Of a stretch of 64,000 bases of DNA, positions 29,015 to 43,006 are shown piece after piece. This stretch comes from an uncultured Neokomagataea sp. (GTDB lineage: Bacteria > Pseudomonadota > Alphaproteobacteria > Acetobacterales > Acetobacteraceae), in assembly GCF_946476835.1 (NCBI RefSeq), contig NZ_CAMKWA010000008.1, positions 1 through 64,000 on the forward strand, written 5' to 3'. The translations under genes and the position numbers were made by a program. Every line of letters starts with the position of its first letter. Position 1 is the stretch's first letter. The notes below the pieces were generated by a model that searched no databases, was not told where the DNA came from, and worked only from the letters and a program-made list of their open reading frames with translations.

Positions 29015-30439
29015 ATGTTTGGCCTATCCGCTTTGTTCTTGGCGCGATTTCAATTCGCGTTCACAGTCGGGTTTCATATTGTATTCCCGGCCTTTTCCAT
29101 CGGGCTAGCTGCCTACCTCGCCGTTCTCGAAGGCCTCTGGCTGAAGACCGGCCGTAGCGCTTACCTCGACCTCTTTAAATACTGGCTCAAAATCTTCGCC
29201 ATCGTCTTCGCGATGGGCGTGGTGTCCGGGCTGGTCATGTCCTACGAATTCGGCACAAACTGGTCTCAGTTCTCACAAAAAGCAGGCCCGGTCCTTGGCC
29301 CTATGCTTGCTTATGAAGTGATGACCGCCTTCTTCTTGGAAGCAGGCTTCCTTGGTGTCATGATGTTCGGCCTCAACCGCGTGGGTAAAGGGCTGCACTT
29401 CGGCTCCACCTGTATGGTGTCCATCGGTACGCTGATTTCCATGACATGGATTCTGTCATCCAACTCATGGATGCAGACGCCACAAGGGTACATCATCGAT
29501 CAAGCCACCGGTCGCTTCCTCCCGAAGGACTGGCTGCAAATCGTCTTCAACCCATCCTTCCCATACCGCTTGGTTCATATGGGCTTGGCTGCATTCCTCT
29601 GCGTTGCCTTCATCGTCGGCGGCGTTGGTGGTTGGCATCTGCTGAAAGCACGCCGTGAAGGCCGTCAGCCTTCCGAGCAAGTACGCCTGATGTTCTCCAT
29701 GGCCATGTGGATGGCAGCAATCGCCTCCCCCATTCAGGTTCTGGCTGGTGACACGCAAGGTCTGAACACGCTGGAATACCAGCCCGCCAAGATCGCTGCG
29801 ATGGAAGGTGACTGGGAATCCGAAGGCCGCGCACCAGAAATCCTGTTCGGTATCCCAGACATGGAAACCGAAACCACGAAATACCGTGTCGAACTGCCTC
29901 TGGTTGGCTCTTTGATCCTGACGCACAGCCTCGATGGCAAAGTGCCGGGCCTGAAAGACTACCCGAAGGACATTCGCCCTTACTCACCCCTGCTGTTCTT
30001 CTCCTTCCGCATCATGGTTGCGTTGGGCATGCTGATGGTGCTGGTCGGCCTGTGGTCTCTGTGGCTGCGCTGGAAAGGCCGTCTGTACAACACGGCTCTG
30101 CTGCACCGCGTTGCACTGCTGATGTCTCCTGCGGGCTTCATCGCTCTGCTGTGCGGTTGGGTCACCACCGAAGTCGGGCGTCAGCCTTTCACGGTGTACG
30201 GCCTGCTGCGTACGGATGAGAGTGCATCCCCGATCTCTTTGGGCAGCATTGAAACCTCAATGATCGCCTTCGTGATCGTGTACTTCATCGTCTTCGCAGG
30301 TGGCATGGGCATTCTGCTGAATGCATTCCGTCATGAGCCTCATAACAATGAGGAAGGTCCTGACGAGCATCAGCCGCATATGTCTGCCGGCACCACGCAA
30401 GTCTCTCACCACCCCCATGGCCACGGCCTGGCAGAGTAA
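29015..30439 (+). CDS. cydA: Cytochrome bd-type quinol oxidase subunit I (CIO type)
   Basis: 'LSALFLARFQFAFTVGFHIVFPAFSIGLA', short Q-loop region, 'GWVTTEVGRQPFTVYGLLRT'. Confidence 0.95.
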   Translation: MFGLSALFLARFQFAFTVGFHIVFPAFSIGLAAYLAVLEGLWLKTGRSAYLDLFKYWLKIFAIVFAMGVVSGLVMSYEFGTNWSQFSQKAGPVLGPMLAYEVMTAFFLEAGFLGVMMFGLNRVGKGLHFGSTCMVSIGTLISMTWILSSNSWMQTPQGYIIDQATGRFLPKDWLQIVFNPSFPYRLVHMGLAAFLCVAFIVGGVGGWHLLKARREGRQPSEQVRLMFSMAMWMAAIASPIQVLAGDTQGLNTLEYQPAKIAAMEGDWESEGRAPEILFGIPDMETETTKYRVELPLVGSLILTHSLDGKVPGLKDYPKDIRPYSPLLFFSFRIMVALGMLMVLVGLWSLWLRWKGRLYNTALLHRVALLMSPAGFIALLCGWVTTEVGRQPFTVYGLLRTDESASPISLGSIETSMIAFVIVYFIVFAGGMGILLNAFRHEPHNNEEGPDEHQPHMSAGTTQVSHHPHGHGLAE

Positions 30440-30459
30440 GAAGTCAGAGAGAAGTATCG

Positions 30460-31482
30460 ATGTTAGAATCAGCCTACTGGCTTCCCGTGGTGTGGGCCGT
30501 TCTCGCGGCCACCGCCATCTTCCTCTACGTCATTCTTGACGGGTTCGACCTCGGTATCGGCGTCCTGTTCCTTAAGGAACGGGACCACGATCACCGTAAC
30601 GTCATGGTCAACACGGTTGCCCCTGTTTGGGACGGCAACGAAACTTGGATGATCTTCGGCGGCGCGACTCTGTACGGCGTTTTCCCCGTCGCCTATGGCA
30701 CCATCTTGCCAGCTCTGTACCTGCCTATCCTGTTCATGCTTCTGGCATTGATCATGCGTGGCGTAGCATTTGAGTTCCGCTTCAAGATGAAGTCCTCCGC
30801 CAGCCAAATGCTGTGGGACGGCGCTTTTTGTGGTGGTTCCATCGTCGCTTCCTTCATGCAGGGCATCATCCTCGGCACACTGGTCCAAGGGATCCCAACT
30901 AAAAACCATGTTTTTGTTGGCTCATCCTTGGACTGGTTCACGCCATTCGCTCTGTTTTGCGGTCTAGCGGTCACCATCGGTTATACCCTTCTGGGTGCAA
31001 CATGGTTGATTTGGCGCTGTGAAGGCGAACTACAGCAGACCATGCGTCGCGCATCTTACAGCCTGGGCGTGCTCATGCTGCTGTGCATTGTCGCCGTCTC
31101 CGTTTGGACGCTGAACCTGCACACGACCTACATGGACCGTTGGTTGATGTGGCCGCAAATCGCTCTGATTGCACCAGTACCGGTCGCGACGGTTGTCGTT
31201 GCTACTGCTCTCTTCTTGGGCCTGCGTCACAAGCCTTCACAATTGCTGCCCTTCGTAGCAACATTGCTGCTGTTCTTCCTGTGCTTCACAGGTTTGGGGA
31301 TCAATGTTTGGCCGAACATCGTGCCGCCATCCATCTCCATCTGGGAAGCCTCTTCACCGCCGCAGTCACAGGCCTTCCTGCTGGTTGGTGCCATGTTCCT
31401 TCTACCGATCATTCTTGCGTACACGATTTACTCTTACTACGTGTTCCGCGGGAAAGTGACGACAGAACATCACTACCACTAA
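30460..31482 (+). CDS. cydB: Cytochrome bd-type quinol oxidase subunit II
   Basis: 'LDGFDLGIGVLF...VAPVWDGNETWMIFGGATLYGVFPVAYG'. Confidence 0.95.
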   Translation: MLESAYWLPVVWAVLAATAIFLYVILDGFDLGIGVLFLKERDHDHRNVMVNTVAPVWDGNETWMIFGGATLYGVFPVAYGTILPALYLPILFMLLALIMRGVAFEFRFKMKSSASQMLWDGAFCGGSIVASFMQGIILGTLVQGIPTKNHVFVGSSLDWFTPFALFCGLAVTIGYTLLGATWLIWRCEGELQQTMRRASYSLGVLMLLCIVAVSVWTLNLHTTYMDRWLMWPQIALIAPVPVATVVVATALFLGLRHKPSQLLPFVATLLLFFLCFTGLGINVWPNIVPPSISIWEASSPPQSQAFLLVGAMFLLPIILAYTIYSYYVFRGKVTTEHHYH

Positions 31483-37224: not shown

Positions 37225-37707
37225 CTATGCTGCTTTTCCCTCTCGGAATGCGACCAACGCAGCCAAAATTGCGGCTGGTTCAGGCGGGCACCCTGGCACA
37301 GAACGCTGCACACGCGTCAATCCTGCCAGCCCGCCTAATGTGGCATATCCCCCAGCAAACGGCCCGCCATCGACTGCACACCGACCAATCGCAATTAACG
37401 ACCGTCCTGCCGGCATAGCACGCCACACTTGATCCAACCGCTCTGCACAACGGCGCGATACCGCACCCGTTACTAACAGCCAGTCTGCATCTTCAGGCTG
37501 CAAAACGCGCCGAAAGCCATTCTGTTCCAAAGCATATGCACCACCACACAGAGCCTCCAACTCCATAGCGCAACCTTCACAACTCCCTGTTTCCAAAAAG
37601 TAAAGCCCTATCGGCAATTGTGTACATCCACCCGAAGCGACGGAACGCGCCCGCCAACGTCGCACATCCAAAAAAGCTTCTACTAAACTGATTGTACGGC
37701 TTTTCAT
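37225..37707 (-). CDS. HyfI/NuoB-like small subunit of hydrogenase-related complex
   Basis: 'LETGSCEGCAMELEAL', 'LLVTGAVS', 'AIGRCAVDGGPF', 'VPGCPPEPAAIL' (all four cluster cysteines kept). Confidence 0.85.
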   Translation of the reverse strand: MKSRTISLVEAFLDVRRWRARSVASGGCTQLPIGLYFLETGSCEGCAMELEALCGGAYALEQNGFRRVLQPEDADWLLVTGAVSRRCAERLDQVWRAMPAGRSLIAIGRCAVDGGPFAGGYATLGGLAGLTRVQRSVPGCPPEPAAILAALVAFREGKAA

Positions 37708-39170
37708 TGCGCCACCCCAGCCGTCGACACCCCTAAAGACCGTAAGGCCAGCGGCATCATCGCAACCTCTACATCCTTCATGATACGCCCAAGCCCCGCT
37801 AGTAATGGTACAGCCGGGTCACGCATATGGATGGCGTCAACTCGGCCATCCCTCAGGCGTACCCATGCCCACACATCACCACGTGCAGATTCTGCTGCAC
37901 CTACACCCTCTTGATCCGTAACATTTGGTATCGCGGGATATGCCTCATCGGCTTCCCCAAGTCCGAAACTACCCAAGATACGCTCAATCAAACGCAAAGC
38001 ATCAAAAACTTCTGTCATGCGCACGGCTTGCCGTGCCCGCGCATCCCCTGCACTAGCGCCCGTCGCCCGTAATGCATCCAAGCGCATTCCATTTTCAGCA
38101 CGCCGCAGATCTAAACTACGTCCACTACTGCGACCAACAGGGCCACCAATAGCCAACCCACGCGCCAATTCCACCGGCAAAACGGCCAATCCTGCCAAAC
38201 GTGGCGCATAAACATCGACCAAAAGGGCTAACTTAGAAAGGCGTGGCTTCATCTCACGCAGCACAGCCTGCGCTAACGGAACGATTTCTACACCGCGCCT
38301 ATACCCGTCTTTGCGGATCATATCCGTCAAACGACGCGTAGCCCCATTTTCTACGCAGACGCGTGCCAAGGCCTCGCGCGCATGCGTGCAATGTGCCGCC
38401 AAAACACCCGCATCCATCGCACGCGCTGTTAACATCACATCATGCAAATGCAGCGAAACACGCTCAATTTCGAGCAAAACCATCCAACTATCACGAAGAG
38501 CAGGCTCAATACGCCGCCCCTCAGCCTGCATGAGTGCACGCGCTAACGCCAAAGGATACGCCACATACCCACCAGCAGACATACGCGCGACAAGCCCCAT
38601 CGCTTCCTCCGGCGTGCGCCCTAAAAGCTGAGCAGTCACCCCACGATGCCCCAGCCCAGCCTCACACTGTTCCGCCCGAATACCGCCTTGCTGCATATCA
38701 GGCACCAGCCCAAAAACGCCCGTTACCCCGTTACCATCAATCCATAACGGAGCCTTTGAGACTTTAGGTGCCCCACCATGATTACCGCCCGGCCCGGGAC
38801 GCTGCGACAACGGCCATGTAATATCCCACGCCCCTCCATCCAGCGCAGAACGGCCGTCACCCGGCACCTCCATGGCCTCCACACCGTACAGATCGAAGGC
38901 GACGCGCTCTCCCCATTCCGCTACGGGATAACGCTGTGAAGGGCCGACATAACGCTTGTCATCAATGGCTGTACTCACCAAAAGCGGCTGGTCTCCCTCT
39001 AGAAAAAGCCCATAAGCCCGCCGTTCATCTGCCCAAAAAGAGAGCATCGGCAACGCAACTTCAGACGTGTGCCACAATGCCTGCCACGTTGGCGCATCCA
39101 CCGCATAATGCCCATAAGACAGCCGCTCACCACCGCGCACCAAACGCCCCATGTAAGAGAGTGGAATCAT
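37704..39170 (-). CDS. HyfG-like fused NuoC/NuoD-type large subunit without NiFe cysteine motifs
   Basis: NuoC-like 'YPVAEWGERVAFDLYGVEAM'; NuoD-like 'GLGHRGVTAQLLGRTPEEAMGLVARMSAGGYVAYPLALARAL'; ATGA overlap with upstream gene. Confidence 0.82.
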   Translation of the reverse strand: MIPLSYMGRLVRGGERLSYGHYAVDAPTWQALWHTSEVALPMLSFWADERRAYGLFLEGDQPLLVSTAIDDKRYVGPSQRYPVAEWGERVAFDLYGVEAMEVPGDGRSALDGGAWDITWPLSQRPGPGGNHGGAPKVSKAPLWIDGNGVTGVFGLVPDMQQGGIRAEQCEAGLGHRGVTAQLLGRTPEEAMGLVARMSAGGYVAYPLALARALMQAEGRRIEPALRDSWMVLLEIERVSLHLHDVMLTARAMDAGVLAAHCTHAREALARVCVENGATRRLTDMIRKDGYRRGVEIVPLAQAVLREMKPRLSKLALLVDVYAPRLAGLAVLPVELARGLAIGGPVGRSSGRSLDLRRAENGMRLDALRATGASAGDARARQAVRMTEVFDALRLIERILGSFGLGEADEAYPAIPNVTDQEGVGAAESARGDVWAWVRLRDGRVDAIHMRDPAVPLLAGLGRIMKDVEVAMMPLALRSLGVSTAGVAQ

Positions 39171-40297
39171 GGTCTCCACACCGGTGCAGGATGCCATTGC
39201 AACAAACACAACCCCGCAACCCCTATGAGGATGAGCCCCAACTCAAAACGGTTCATCCATGCCCCCACAGCATAATGCTCTTTTCCTACGCGCCATAACG
39301 CGGGCAGCCACAACACCATCACCACCACAAACCACGTTACAGGCAGCGCCAGTCCCATTGCTAACAACGCCACAAAAACAGGAGACGGTGGCACACCAGC
39401 CCCCAATTGCAACAGGCGTTCTACCCTGACCCAACGCAGCCCAACAGCCAAACCCAAAGCCGCCAAACACAACAATACAACAGCATTTCCCGCACCAAAC
39501 GCTGCCGCCACAGCCGCCAGTCCGATCACGCCACTCAAAAGCCCCACAATGCTCTGTGCTCGGCGTATTCCCATCATCAATAACGTGACAAACCCCGCAG
39601 CAAGCACAATATCCCGCACGACAGATACCGCATTAAGCCGCCAAATCAGTGCAATCGCCGCAAAGCGAAGAGCAATTTCCAGCAGGTTTTCTGCCATATC
39701 ATCATGCTCTTCTGGCACAGGAGCGGGGCCAAGACCTGCCATCATTCCCAGCCCAGCCGCCAGAAAAACACTGCCCAACATTCCCCCATTACCTGAGAGA
39801 ATATCACCCCCAACTTGCCGCCCCAAGGTCAACCACGCAGCTCCTAAAGCTGCCACAACCACCCCGGCCAAACGGCTACGTGTCATATCCCATACAAAAG
39901 ATGCACGCTGCGCTCGGCGTGCCGCTCTCCATGCCGAGAGCACAAACCCCACCCCGCACAGCGCCGTAACAGCAAAAACATCGCGCACATTCAACGCCTG
40001 CAGCGCACACCCCGTCACAGCAAAAGACAAAACCATACCGCTTTGTCTCTTTCTCTCCTCACCACCATGCAAAAGCAACGCAGGAACCAGCGCAACCAAA
40101 CACGAGCACGCCGCAGAGAGCGGGTCACTACCCGGCAACAACCACACGGCAAAAGGCGTTAACACACCTCCTGCGAGTGCAAACGTCATCCCCGCAGGGA
40201 ACCGACGGTCAGACGGCGTTAAATATAGCAAAAGAGCAGCTAACCACGGCCACAACGTGACCGCGAATAACACACTTGCTTGCCCAGGATGGATCAC
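39167..40297 (-). CDS. HyfF/NuoN-like membrane subunit (divergent, 376 aa)
   Basis: Polytopic; 'GLGMMAGLGPAPVPEEHDDMAENLLEIALR' and 'GVPPSPVFVAL' align with HyfF-type motifs; operon position. Confidence 0.65.
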   Translation of the reverse strand: MIHPGQASVLFAVTLWPWLAALLLYLTPSDRRFPAGMTFALAGGVLTPFAVWLLPGSDPLSAACSCLVALVPALLLHGGEERKRQSGMVLSFAVTGCALQALNVRDVFAVTALCGVGFVLSAWRAARRAQRASFVWDMTRSRLAGVVVAALGAAWLTLGRQVGGDILSGNGGMLGSVFLAAGLGMMAGLGPAPVPEEHDDMAENLLEIALRFAAIALIWRLNAVSVVRDIVLAAGFVTLLMMGIRRAQSIVGLLSGVIGLAAVAAAFGAGNAVVLLCLAALGLAVGLRWVRVERLLQLGAGVPPSPVFVALLAMGLALPVTWFVVVMVLWLPALWRVGKEHYAVGAWMNRFELGLILIGVAGLCLLQWHPAPVWRP

Positions 40298-40821
40298 GCC
40301 ACATCCCCCTCAACGCGGCGCCATGCTAAACGCGGTAACAGTACCAAACCAAACACAACAAACACGCCGGATAACGCTATAGCCGCCCCTAAAAACACCC
40401 ATGAATGCAACACACAAGCCAATACCAGTAACCCAGATACCGCACGAATACAGCCAGAAAACTGCACCAAAACAGGACCACTTACCGCGCCGCACAACCC
40501 CGCCAGCACCACACCCGTTGCCAATGTCGCAGCCAACCCTGCCGAAGCACCGCTTAATCCCAAAGCCAGCAATAAAAACATTGCACCAACGACAGGCCAC
40601 ACAGCTTCACGCCCTGGACGATGCGGCGCAAATTGTTGCAGCCACCGCCACATCCCCACCGTCAGAGCCAGAATGGCCACAGAGGCAGACAACCACAAAA
40701 CACCCGTACTCACCGTACCACCAGCCAAAGCACAGATCACACCATAAAGAGGCAGGCTCCGCCCATCTCGCCCAATACTCGCCAAGGCCACCAAAAGGAG
40801 AAAACCAAAACACAAAATCAC
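40294..40821 (-). CDS. HyfE-like membrane subunit
   Basis: Short polytopic ORF between HyfC- and HyfF-like genes; GTG start overlaps the preceding stop (GTGA). Confidence 0.6.
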   Translation of the reverse strand: MILCFGFLLLVALASIGRDGRSLPLYGVICALAGGTVSTGVLWLSASVAILALTVGMWRWLQQFAPHRPGREAVWPVVGAMFLLLALGLSGASAGLAATLATGVVLAGLCGAVSGPVLVQFSGCIRAVSGLLVLACVLHSWVFLGAAIALSGVFVVFGLVLLPRLAWRRVEGDVA

Positions 40822-41714
40822 GTTGCCGCCCTCCCCGAAAGCGCCAACAACAACGCCATCCCAATAAACAAAATAGCAATGCGGCCCGAACGTTCCTGCT
40901 GGGTTAAACGCAATACGGCAAATACCCCCAAGCCGAGGCCCAATCGCACAGCAGCGCCCAAGAGAGCTGCCCCCCAAGACCACACATTGCCATCAGGCTG
41001 CCCAATCAGTCCCGGCAACCCCAGATCCACCAACAATAACAACCATGCACCATCCAACAGTACCGCCACATGCCGCGCCATATCAGCCTCTAAACGCAAC
41101 ATTGACGCCCCCTCTAAAAGGCCACGCCCCGGCGACATCGCTCGCAACGGCGGACATACAACGGCCAGTGCCATGGCGGCACAGGCTAGCGCTCCCTCAA
41201 GCCCCGGCACAGGTTCTACCTGCAAATTGGCACACAATCCGGCCAACCCATCACTGCCCGGCGCAGTCAACGCAATCAGCGCCTCAATTACCCCTAAAAT
41301 AATCAAGCCTAACCCAGCACCGCGCCATTCACGCCGCAGCGCCACTGCACTCACCTGTGGCGCACCAAACCAAACGCCCCATACCCCCAGTGCCAAACGC
41401 CCCGCCAAGAGAAAACTCCCCAAAAACAGCGGATCGGCCATACCAGAAAAGCCATGTACACTGCTCAGCATCGGTAATGATAAGAACGACACACAAGCCG
41501 CAGCCAGCGCAAAAGCATGCATGATGGACAAGCGCTTACGCCACACCATCCGCCAACTGCGCCAAAATGCACCCCATTGTGGCCCAGCCACCGCTTCCCC
41601 CGCCACCCAACGCGGCGCATCACGCAAACACCATTGCAACCACGGCAAACACACCACAAAAACAACGCATTGCATGACAGAATATATAATCGGAAGCACA
41701 TATGCGCTGATCAT
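40818..41714 (-). CDS. HyfC/NuoH-like membrane subunit
   Basis: 'GPQWGAFWRSWRMVWRKRL' resembles the NuoH/HyfC 'GP..QPYRDL.KL' region; ATGA start overlap. Confidence 0.65.
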   Translation of the reverse strand: MISAYVLPIIYSVMQCVVFVVCLPWLQWCLRDAPRWVAGEAVAGPQWGAFWRSWRMVWRKRLSIMHAFALAAACVSFLSLPMLSSVHGFSGMADPLFLGSFLLAGRLALGVWGVWFGAPQVSAVALRREWRGAGLGLIILGVIEALIALTAPGSDGLAGLCANLQVEPVPGLEGALACAAMALAVVCPPLRAMSPGRGLLEGASMLRLEADMARHVAVLLDGAWLLLLVDLGLPGLIGQPDGNVWSWGAALLGAAVRLGLGLGVFAVLRLTQQERSGRIAILFIGMALLLALSGRAAT

Positions 41715-43006
41715 GACTGCGCTCCCAGCACCGCGAGAATAGTTGCCAAGACCACCAGCCACCAACCAAGAGACGCACCACCCTCCCGCAGTGCAGGTCC
41801 GACGGAGGACAGACGCGCACCACCACGCCCACCCAGCAATGCAACATCACGAACCACCTTGCGCATCACCACAATATACCGCCGCCAAGCCCATGGCACC
41901 GTGTAACGCCGCAGAGAAAAAATCGTACCCCGCGGAAATACCAAGCCATGCCCCAAAAAGGTCTGTCCGCCCCCTCGACGCACAATCACCCAATAAAAGA
42001 GACATAAAAACAGTGCGATAGATCCAAGCCGCAAAAATGCGCCATCACCGCCCCCAAAAGAAGCAAACGGCACCCCATTGCCCCCTAGGACATATTTTTG
42101 GATTAAGACTAGCGCAGCCGTCAGCCCTATTAATAACCCTGCCGCTTTACCCACCTCCACCATAGAGACAGCATCGCTCTGGCGAGGCGTACGACACACA
42201 TGCCACAACTCCAGCACAGCCAGAGCCCCCAAAATCAACGCACAAAACACGGCTGGTACCGCCCAGCCTGAGGCTGCTGCGGCTAAATTCAACGCGGCAT
42301 GCACGCCCACCCACAACACAATAAATCCCGGCATGGGCGGAAAAGGAGCCGACAACGCATACGCAACCGATAACGATTGCACTGGCCATGAACGCAGCCA
42401 TTGAACCGCCAAATCCAGCACAGCGGCAATGATGGCCCCTTGCCCTGCCGTATCCAGCCCCTCATGCTGAGCCGCCGCAGCCAAAGCGACCAAAAGCGCG
42501 GGACGCACCATGCCCGCCGCCGCAAAATCGGTCACCACGCCCTGCACCGTACGTAGAACCAACAAAACCGCCATTGCACAACACAGCAACACAGCACAGA
42601 GCGGCGCAGAAGCTGCCCCATGCCACACCACAAGCGCCGCTAACGCCGCCATACACGGCGCAACACTGCCTTCACGTGATAACGCCGCACGCGTGGTGGC
42701 TTTCTCACCCACCAGCCAAGGCCAGAATAAAACTGGCAAAACCGCCACACAGCCCCATACCTGACCGGGCAGCAACACCAACAACACTAACGCAATAACT
42801 TGCCACCATGGTGGCGCACCAGATGCCCCAAATGCGGTCACAATACCCAGCAATAACGCAGCCAAAAGGGGCGAAGTAAGTAAACCTACCCCCACCACGC
42901 ACAGAAGCAACAATACTCCACGAGCACGCCGAACATCACCCAATGCCGCACACACGCCAGGCACTGCTAAGCAATAAGACACCGCATCGCGAGTTATAAA
43001 ATCCAT
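41711..43006 (-). CDS. HyfB/NuoL-M-like membrane subunit (compact, divergent)
   Basis: Polytopic; 'SAPFPPMPGFIVLWVGVHAALN' resembles the late-TM 'G.PP..GF..K' motif of antiporter-like subunits; first gene of the operon. Confidence 0.6.
   Translation of the reverse strand: MDFITRDAVSYCLAVPGVCAALGDVRRARGVLLLLCVVGVGLLTSPLLAALLLGIVTAFGASGAPPWWQVIALVLLVLLPGQVWGCVAVLPVLFWPWLVGEKATTRAALSREGSVAPCMAALAALVVWHGAASAPLCAVLLCCAMAVLLVLRTVQGVVTDFAAAGMVRPALLVALAAAAQHEGLDTAGQGAIIAAVLDLAVQWLRSWPVQSLSVAYALSAPFPPMPGFIVLWVGVHAALNLAAAASGWAVPAVFCALILGALAVLELWHVCRTPRQSDAVSMVEVGKAAGLLIGLTAALVLIQKYVLGGNGVPFASFGGGDGAFLRLGSIALFLCLFYWVIVRRGGGQTFLGHGLVFPRGTIFSLRRYTVPWAWRRYIVVMRKVVRDVALLGGRGGARLSSVGPALREGGASLGWWLVVLATILAVLGAQS

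Follow-up and report, generated by a model that had tools for sequence, protein, structure and literature searches.

A putative derived and uncoupled Ehr complex, lacking NiFe ligands, pocket signature and channel lysines, in acetic acid bacteria

Redox-driven ion pumping is the accepted role of complex I and its relatives. Among them, MBS retains some of the cysteines that ligate the metal in NiFe hydrogenases, and HypD is needed to build any NiFe centre. The energy-converting-hydrogenase-related (Ehr) complexes of Geobacter, Methylacidiphilum and Methanospirillum, encoded by ehrABCDLS, were reportedly treated by Coppi in 2005 and by Marreiros et al. in 2013; by name, their subunits follow one another as NuoL-like, NuoH-like, HyfE-like, NuoM-like, large and small. 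Published accounts describe Ehr as six-subunit complexes of Geobacter and other organisms (PMC7894505, PMC6688271, PMC4704411), give names to some of the subunits (PMC7894505), and report a large subunit without Ni/Fe-binding residues (PMC6349859). Our literature search found no paper on the hyf operon, and no published role for it, in acetic acid bacteria. Judged from gene order and aligned residues, the hyf locus described here is a six-subunit Ehr operon (ehrABCDLS). An earlier, sequence-only reading correctly recognized that it should form no NiFe centre and that its small subunit keeps four cluster cysteines under selection, but overlooked both the Ehr identity and the additional loss of membrane-arm channel residues and of the Ehr pocket.

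The window, that is, the whole stretch of 64,000 nucleotides that was analyzed, derives from a 2.44-Mb genome of an acetic acid bacterium. Its six genes hyfB-C-E-F-G-I lie on the minus strand, running from 43006 down to 37225, with the following features:

41711 to 43006, minus strand: hyfB/ehrA-like, a strongly diverged antiporter-like membrane subunit of 431 residues, assigned from operon position and synteny with the recognizable HyfB of relatives
40818 to 41714, minus strand: hyfC/ehrB-like (NuoH/ND1-type), a membrane subunit of 298 residues, assigned from a profile-profile match to canonical HyfC
40294 to 40821, minus strand: hyfE/ehrC-like, a membrane subunit with a GTG start inferred at 40821
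39167 to 40297, minus strand: hyfF/ehrD-like, an antiporter-like membrane subunit of 376 residues, assigned from an AlphaFold model and Foldseek
37704 to 39170, minus strand: hyfG/ehrL, the large subunit of 488 residues, with a NuoC-like N terminus, a NuoD/HycE-like body and no NiFe ligands
38568 to 38579, minus strand: codons of HyfG S198 to G201, at the site of the N-terminal CxxC (HycE C241/C244)
37716 to 37733, minus strand: codons of HyfG G480 to G485, at the site of the C-terminal DPCxxC (HycE D529/C531/C534)
37225 to 37707, minus strand: hyfI/ehrS, the small subunit of 160 residues, with ligands for one [4Fe-4S] cluster
37570 to 37581, minus strand: codons of HyfI C43-x-x-C46, a hydrogenase-type CxxC, unlike the CC of complex I NuoB
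37378 to 37380, minus strand: codon of HyfI C110, the third cluster ligand
37288 to 37290, minus strand: codon of HyfI C140, the fourth cluster ligand

The plus strand across 37704 to 39170 is rich in stop codons, hyfG being a minus-strand gene. Read directly from the sequence, all five hyf junctions are 4-base stop/start overlaps (NTGA; ATGA for hyfB/hyfC), so the six genes look cotranslated. Their order is kept across the genus and in most of the relatives sampled, the nearest named ones by HyfG identity being Neokomagataea anthophila (93%) and N. thailandica (89%). A scan of the locus for promoters and terminators gave nothing above chance, and the operon itself encodes neither an electron donor, a ferredoxin subunit nor an acceptor, nor does it contain an NADH module (NuoEFG). 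Elsewhere in the window, at 29015 to 31482 on the plus strand, stand two adjacent genes that we take, by their look, to be subunits I and II of a cytochrome bd-type quinol oxidase. Just upstream of hyfB and on the same strand lies an aldo/keto reductase gene (PF00248; 43067 to 43915, minus strand), as is the case in about 30 loci. Three loci outside the window's subclade also have such a gene near hyfB, two of them canonical, with an 8-base gap and a distance of about 2 kb, respectively, so that the link may predate loss of the pump. The reductase is a possible partner of the hyf products, or its proximity may be only synteny.

The large subunit HyfG, which begins with MIPLSYMGRL, was claimed to lack every NiFe-ligating CxxC motif, and this is borne out. 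Both stretches quoted for it are exact, VARMSAGGYVAYPLALARAL around residues 194 to 213 and IMKDVEVAMMPLALRSLGVSTAGVAQ at the C terminus. The protein contains only three cysteines (C169, C261, and C272), none paired as CxxC, as had also been stated, and alignment with E. coli HycE and P. furiosus MbhL places S198, G201, S482 and G485 at the positions of HycE C241, C244, C531 and C534. Realignment with HycE, MbhL and Nqo4, as a check on recovery of the structural ligands, restored no NiFe cysteine. In the 48-member Acetobacteraceae clade that contains the window, the only HyfG columns with cysteine in at least 30% of the members are 47, 261 and 272, none of which is a NiFe position, and all 16 Ehr loci examined from other alphaproteobacterial families also lack cysteine at the four positions, so neither chance nor an assembly error accounts for the loss. 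A search for HypD came up empty for the window's genome and, overall, for 28 of 31 genomes, and no second 49-kDa protein of the NuoD/hydrogenase-large type is present in the window's genome. The proposal of a protein without a NiFe centre is thus strongly supported by the absent ligands, the failure to find HypD and the sharing of the loss among the alphaproteobacterial Ehr loci examined; on the aligned residues, such a centre can be excluded.

What remains of the surrounding site is mixed. The HycE residues H284, R395 and E437 lie on its proton path (PMC9474812), and their counterparts in HyfG, H241, R347 and E387, are 94 to 98% conserved in the clade; R430, the counterpart of the HycE canopy Arg478, is kept in 34 of the 48 members. 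In the joint alignment the HycE canopy Asp529 has become G480, Ser283 has become L240, and the acidic pair of the beta1-beta2 loop reads T150/G151. The sequence-only reading had also suggested looking for a quinone- or sulfur-type pocket. At the aligned positions we find neither the quinone-site His and Tyr of Nqo4 nor any residual ligand Cys: the His of the Nqo4 beta1-beta2 loop corresponds to T150 and the RMDY motif reads RMSA. The only Pfam match of HyfG above the curated cutoff is to the complex I 49-kDa family (Complex1_49kDa, 8e-12). A HyfG profile searched against the PDB matched HycE (7z0s; 2.5e-58) and MbhL (9e-52) ahead of any complex I subunit, and P. furiosus MbxL more weakly (1.4e-30).

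The claim that the partner small subunit retains all its cluster ligands likewise holds, C43, C46, C110 and C140 being invariant in all 24 aligned HyfI sequences, consistent with their maintenance under selection. HyfI matches PF01058 (20-kDa family; 3.4e-23), and its best PDB match is HycG (2.1e-36). Seven loci have no hyfI beside hyfG, and we considered whether these might represent complexes without any cofactor. This idea was dropped because a whole-genome search located hyfI elsewhere in every such genome; in total, HyfI was present in 18 of 18 genomes tested, relocated cases included. Retention of the cysteines plausibly means that HyfI takes part in electron transfer. As to gene context, in seven loci of a single subclade the relocated hyfI directly precedes an nrtR-like gene and nadA-nadB-nadC, for NAD synthesis; in three further loci nrtR-nadABC lies a few kilobases away from the hyf operon; and in three loci of one small-genome group (g56) hyfG and hyfI are several kilobases apart, with the orientation of hyfI unchanged.

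To place the locus, 58 loci were compared (one genome per species, nearly all from Acetobacteraceae), of which 10 have canonical antiporter-like subunits; the remaining 48, one of them the window, lack these. The 48 lysine-less loci fall on one side of a branch in the HyfG tree and, upon rooting on HycE/MbhL, form one clade (SH-aLRT, 98), consistent with a single origin. Two genomes each carry a canonical Ehr locus together with a member of the lysine-less clade, which makes them suited to comparing both types inside one cell. A class-wide search returned full-length relatives from other alphaproteobacterial families, and in the 16 Ehr loci from these families the four NiFe positions read S, S/A/T, S/T and G. 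Since the same loss occurs in these loci, the disappearance of the NiFe cysteines is best read as ancestral to the family; it has been described for Ehr before and is not new in kind. Fifteen of the 16 loci have CNKSFNC[ST]Y[AS]G as their C-terminal signature. In this group the motif RxSGDS...CNKSFNCSYSG stands where NiFe ligands would be, marking a candidate Ehr active site. The same canonical signature is largely lost in the 48-member clade, the window reading RMSAGG and ALRSLGVSTAG; across the clade, D is changed to G, A or S, the first N to L, K mostly to A or R, the second N to G, and Y to P or A. What is new, then, is the loss of membrane-arm and pocket residues in one clade of Acetobacteraceae.

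The membrane arm has diverged too. HyfB, HyfC, HyfE and HyfF of the window gave no convincing match in Pfam or NCBIfam, HyfB having no Pfam match at all, and the antiporter-like subunits are shrunken, with 431 (HyfB) and 376 (HyfF) residues, where their canonical counterparts have about 660 and 490. In the 10 canonical loci, lysines of the TM7 and TM12 types are conserved in the alignment. The motif K-x-G-L-x-P-L-H-x-W-L-P, in contrast, is absent from every readable HyfB and HyfF of the 48 clade loci, a few of which are truncated at a contig edge or leave one of this pair of subunits unrecognized. Fifteen clade HyfB sequences can be aligned to canonical HyfB (E values down to 1e-138); in all 15 the four Lys columns that are invariant in canonical HyfB are replaced, and no more than 5 of 16 ionizable columns are kept. 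Likewise, all five canonical Lys columns are replaced in the three alignable clade HyfF sequences. The window belongs to the most diverged subclade, where Lys stays below 70% in every column of HyfB and HyfF; the predicted membrane helices of the window's HyfE contain no charged residue. The acidic columns of canonical HyfC are mostly lost. Some D, E, R and H residues are still conserved in the diverged subclade, for instance H236 and D321 of HyfB and D230 of HyfC.

How certain is it that these proteins are the subunits that their position suggests? For HyfC, a profile-profile comparison with canonical HyfC gave a probability of 97.7% (E value, 2.5e-12), whereas the same search from the most diverged set gave no direct proof of homology for HyfB, HyfE or HyfF. 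The AlphaFold model of HyfF (pLDDT, 86; pTM, 0.88) matched NuoN in Foldseek with an E value of 2.6e-5, and NuoN, NuoM and NuoL were all matched at a probability of 1.00 with query-length TM-scores of about 0.6 to 0.75. As modeled, HyfF thus retains the NuoN/NuoM/NuoL fold while its channel lysines are lost. Confidence is lower for the HyfB model (pLDDT, 76), none of whose fold matches is significant (best E value, 1.0), although NuoL, MrpD and HycC are its top three, so the case for HyfB homology is built on synteny and linked intermediates. Across many genera the gene order pepA-holC-(aldo/keto reductase)-hyf-pssA is conserved, and recognizable HyfB (six loci) and unrecognizable HyfB occupy the same slot in it. 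Given this shared place, the two are very probably orthologues.

Despite this divergence, all six hyf genes are under purifying selection. Comparison of the window with N. anthophila and N. thailandica gave pairwise Nei-Gojobori dN/dS values of 0.05 to 0.14 across the six genes, against 0.005 to 0.10 for neighboring genes in the same comparison, and four other pairs gave hyf values of 0.008 to 0.27; close to the window, hyf values span about 0.05 to 0.16. hyfG is open in 48 of 48 clade loci, and HyfG matches were obtained from 25 of 25 genomes of the genus and from 85 of the family's 91 genera, the weakest of these 85 being NuoD. The window's genome lacks complex I, with no NuoD or NuoB relatives, and NuoD is also missing from most of the Gluconobacter-group genomes tested and from all tested small genomes that we presume, from inferred genus names, to be Bombella-like (four genera). 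A role accessory to complex I was considered and rejected: as the hyf operon is retained in genomes where NuoD is absent, it is not an appendage of complex I.

Comparison with described systems brings out what is shared and what has gone. With Ehr the locus has in common six subunits in the same order, a large subunit without NiFe ligands, and a small subunit with the ligands of the proximal [4Fe-4S] cluster. It differs in its shrunken antiporter-like subunits, in the loss of the channel lysines and of most ionizable residues found in canonical Mrp/complex-I antiporter-like subunits (the fold being present for HyfF and its match insignificant for HyfB), and in the missing alphaproteobacterial pocket signature; because the loss of channel lysines is clade wide, we call it a derived variant and not a plain Ehr. 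E. coli Hyd-3 and Hyd-4 (HycE/HycG and HyfG/HyfI) resemble it in providing the best PDB matches, in the NuoC-like N-terminal fusion and in the H-R-E proton-path residues. However, the four Cys ligands and the Hyp maturation (HypD) typical of Group 4 NiFe hydrogenases (Hyf/Hyc/Mbh) were not found, nor was the canopy Asp, and the ferredoxin subunits (HycB/HycF/HyfH) and formate dehydrogenase are missing from the window's hyf operon. P. furiosus Mbx/MBS is, similarly, a complex-I-superfamily complex without a NiFe centre, but the HyfG pocket has no residual Cys at any ligand position and the pumping residues are not conserved. Complex I itself (NuoB/NuoD) shares the superfamily, the fold of NuoN/M/L with HyfF, and the Pfam assignment of HyfG, whereas HyfI has CxxC in place of the tandem CC of NuoB, HyfG lacks the quinone-site His and Tyr of NuoD/Nqo4, and the operon has no NADH module.

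Because the channel residues and the Ehr pocket have been lost as well, the likely function, judged from residues, shifts from a pump with a different chemistry to an uncoupled complex, one whose present role is probably neither hydrogen production nor proton pumping. Our main reading, to which we give a probability of roughly 0.55, is that the locus encodes a derived, uncoupled Ehr: a membrane-anchored, one-cluster Fe-S complex without H2 chemistry or proton pumping, acting as an electron relay or as a sensor/scaffold. HyfG and HyfI would be carried by a reduced membrane base of complex I type (HyfB, HyfC, HyfE, and HyfF) that would serve as anchor and structural support. HyfI would bind a single [4Fe-4S] cluster and exchange single electrons with a cytosolic partner, and the acceptor might be another protein or a quinone docking at the HyfG/HyfC face, the exchange proceeding without H2 chemistry and without proton translocation. 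Of the two modes, we favor the relay, that is, catalytic electron exchange, over an informational role as redox sensor or scaffold. We see roughly even odds that the complex is a pseudo-enzyme on all counts, with no metal, quinone site or ion channel, kept in much of the family as a membrane-anchored single-cluster redox sensor, scaffold or noncoupled relay, and forming the sole complex-I-superfamily large subunit of the window's genome, most of the tested Gluconobacter-group genomes and the Bombella-like genomes.

The main rival to the relay is a pseudo-enzyme role without turnover, in which the state of the cluster or a docking surface would regulate or anchor a partner, making the complex a scaffold or a redox/Fe-S sensor. 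That the NiFe site, the Ehr pocket and the channel have all been lost, yet the fold and a conserved core persist, is what might be expected of such a protein, as is an operon that encodes no substrate or electron-donor subunit. The still largely conserved His-Arg-Glu network and R430 of HyfG, counterparts of the catalytic proton path of HycE, fit it less well, and neither a regulatory domain nor a gene for a regulator accompanies the operon consistently. We hold this role to be a tentative alternative. Continued ion translocation by a rearranged path that dispenses with the usual lysines seems doubtful to us: the retained antiporter-like fold of HyfF and the conserved D321, H236 (HyfB) and D230 (HyfC) columns would suit it, but every Lys column is gone from the alignable members, the predicted helices of HyfE are uncharged and most canonical HyfC acidic columns have disappeared. 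That HyfB and HyfF have diverged very rapidly, and that Pfam fails to recognize the membrane subunits, could also suggest a decaying pseudo-operon, a functionless Ehr relic. This is very unlikely, as pseudogene decay is rejected by dN/dS values far below 1 for every gene in every pair tested, and the intact hyfG reading frames, the invariant cluster cysteines, the maintenance of HyfI after relocation and the wide distribution of HyfG speak against it too. Finally, a working NiFe hydrogenase or MBS-type sulfur reductase with unusual ligands, for which one could cite only the homology of HyfG to HycE and MbhL, can be set aside as extremely improbable with none of the four ligand cysteines present, HypD not found and the canopy Asp lost.

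The family holds a natural series that leads from canonical Ehr via alignable lysine-less members to membrane subunits beyond the reach of public family models; each pair tested shows purifying selection, and the Fe-S small subunit is intact. Since this series exists, the usefulness of complex-I-like parts without pumping becomes directly testable, and the series provides a control set for the residues truly needed in coupling. The genes concerned are, moreover, those of industrially used acetic acid bacteria.
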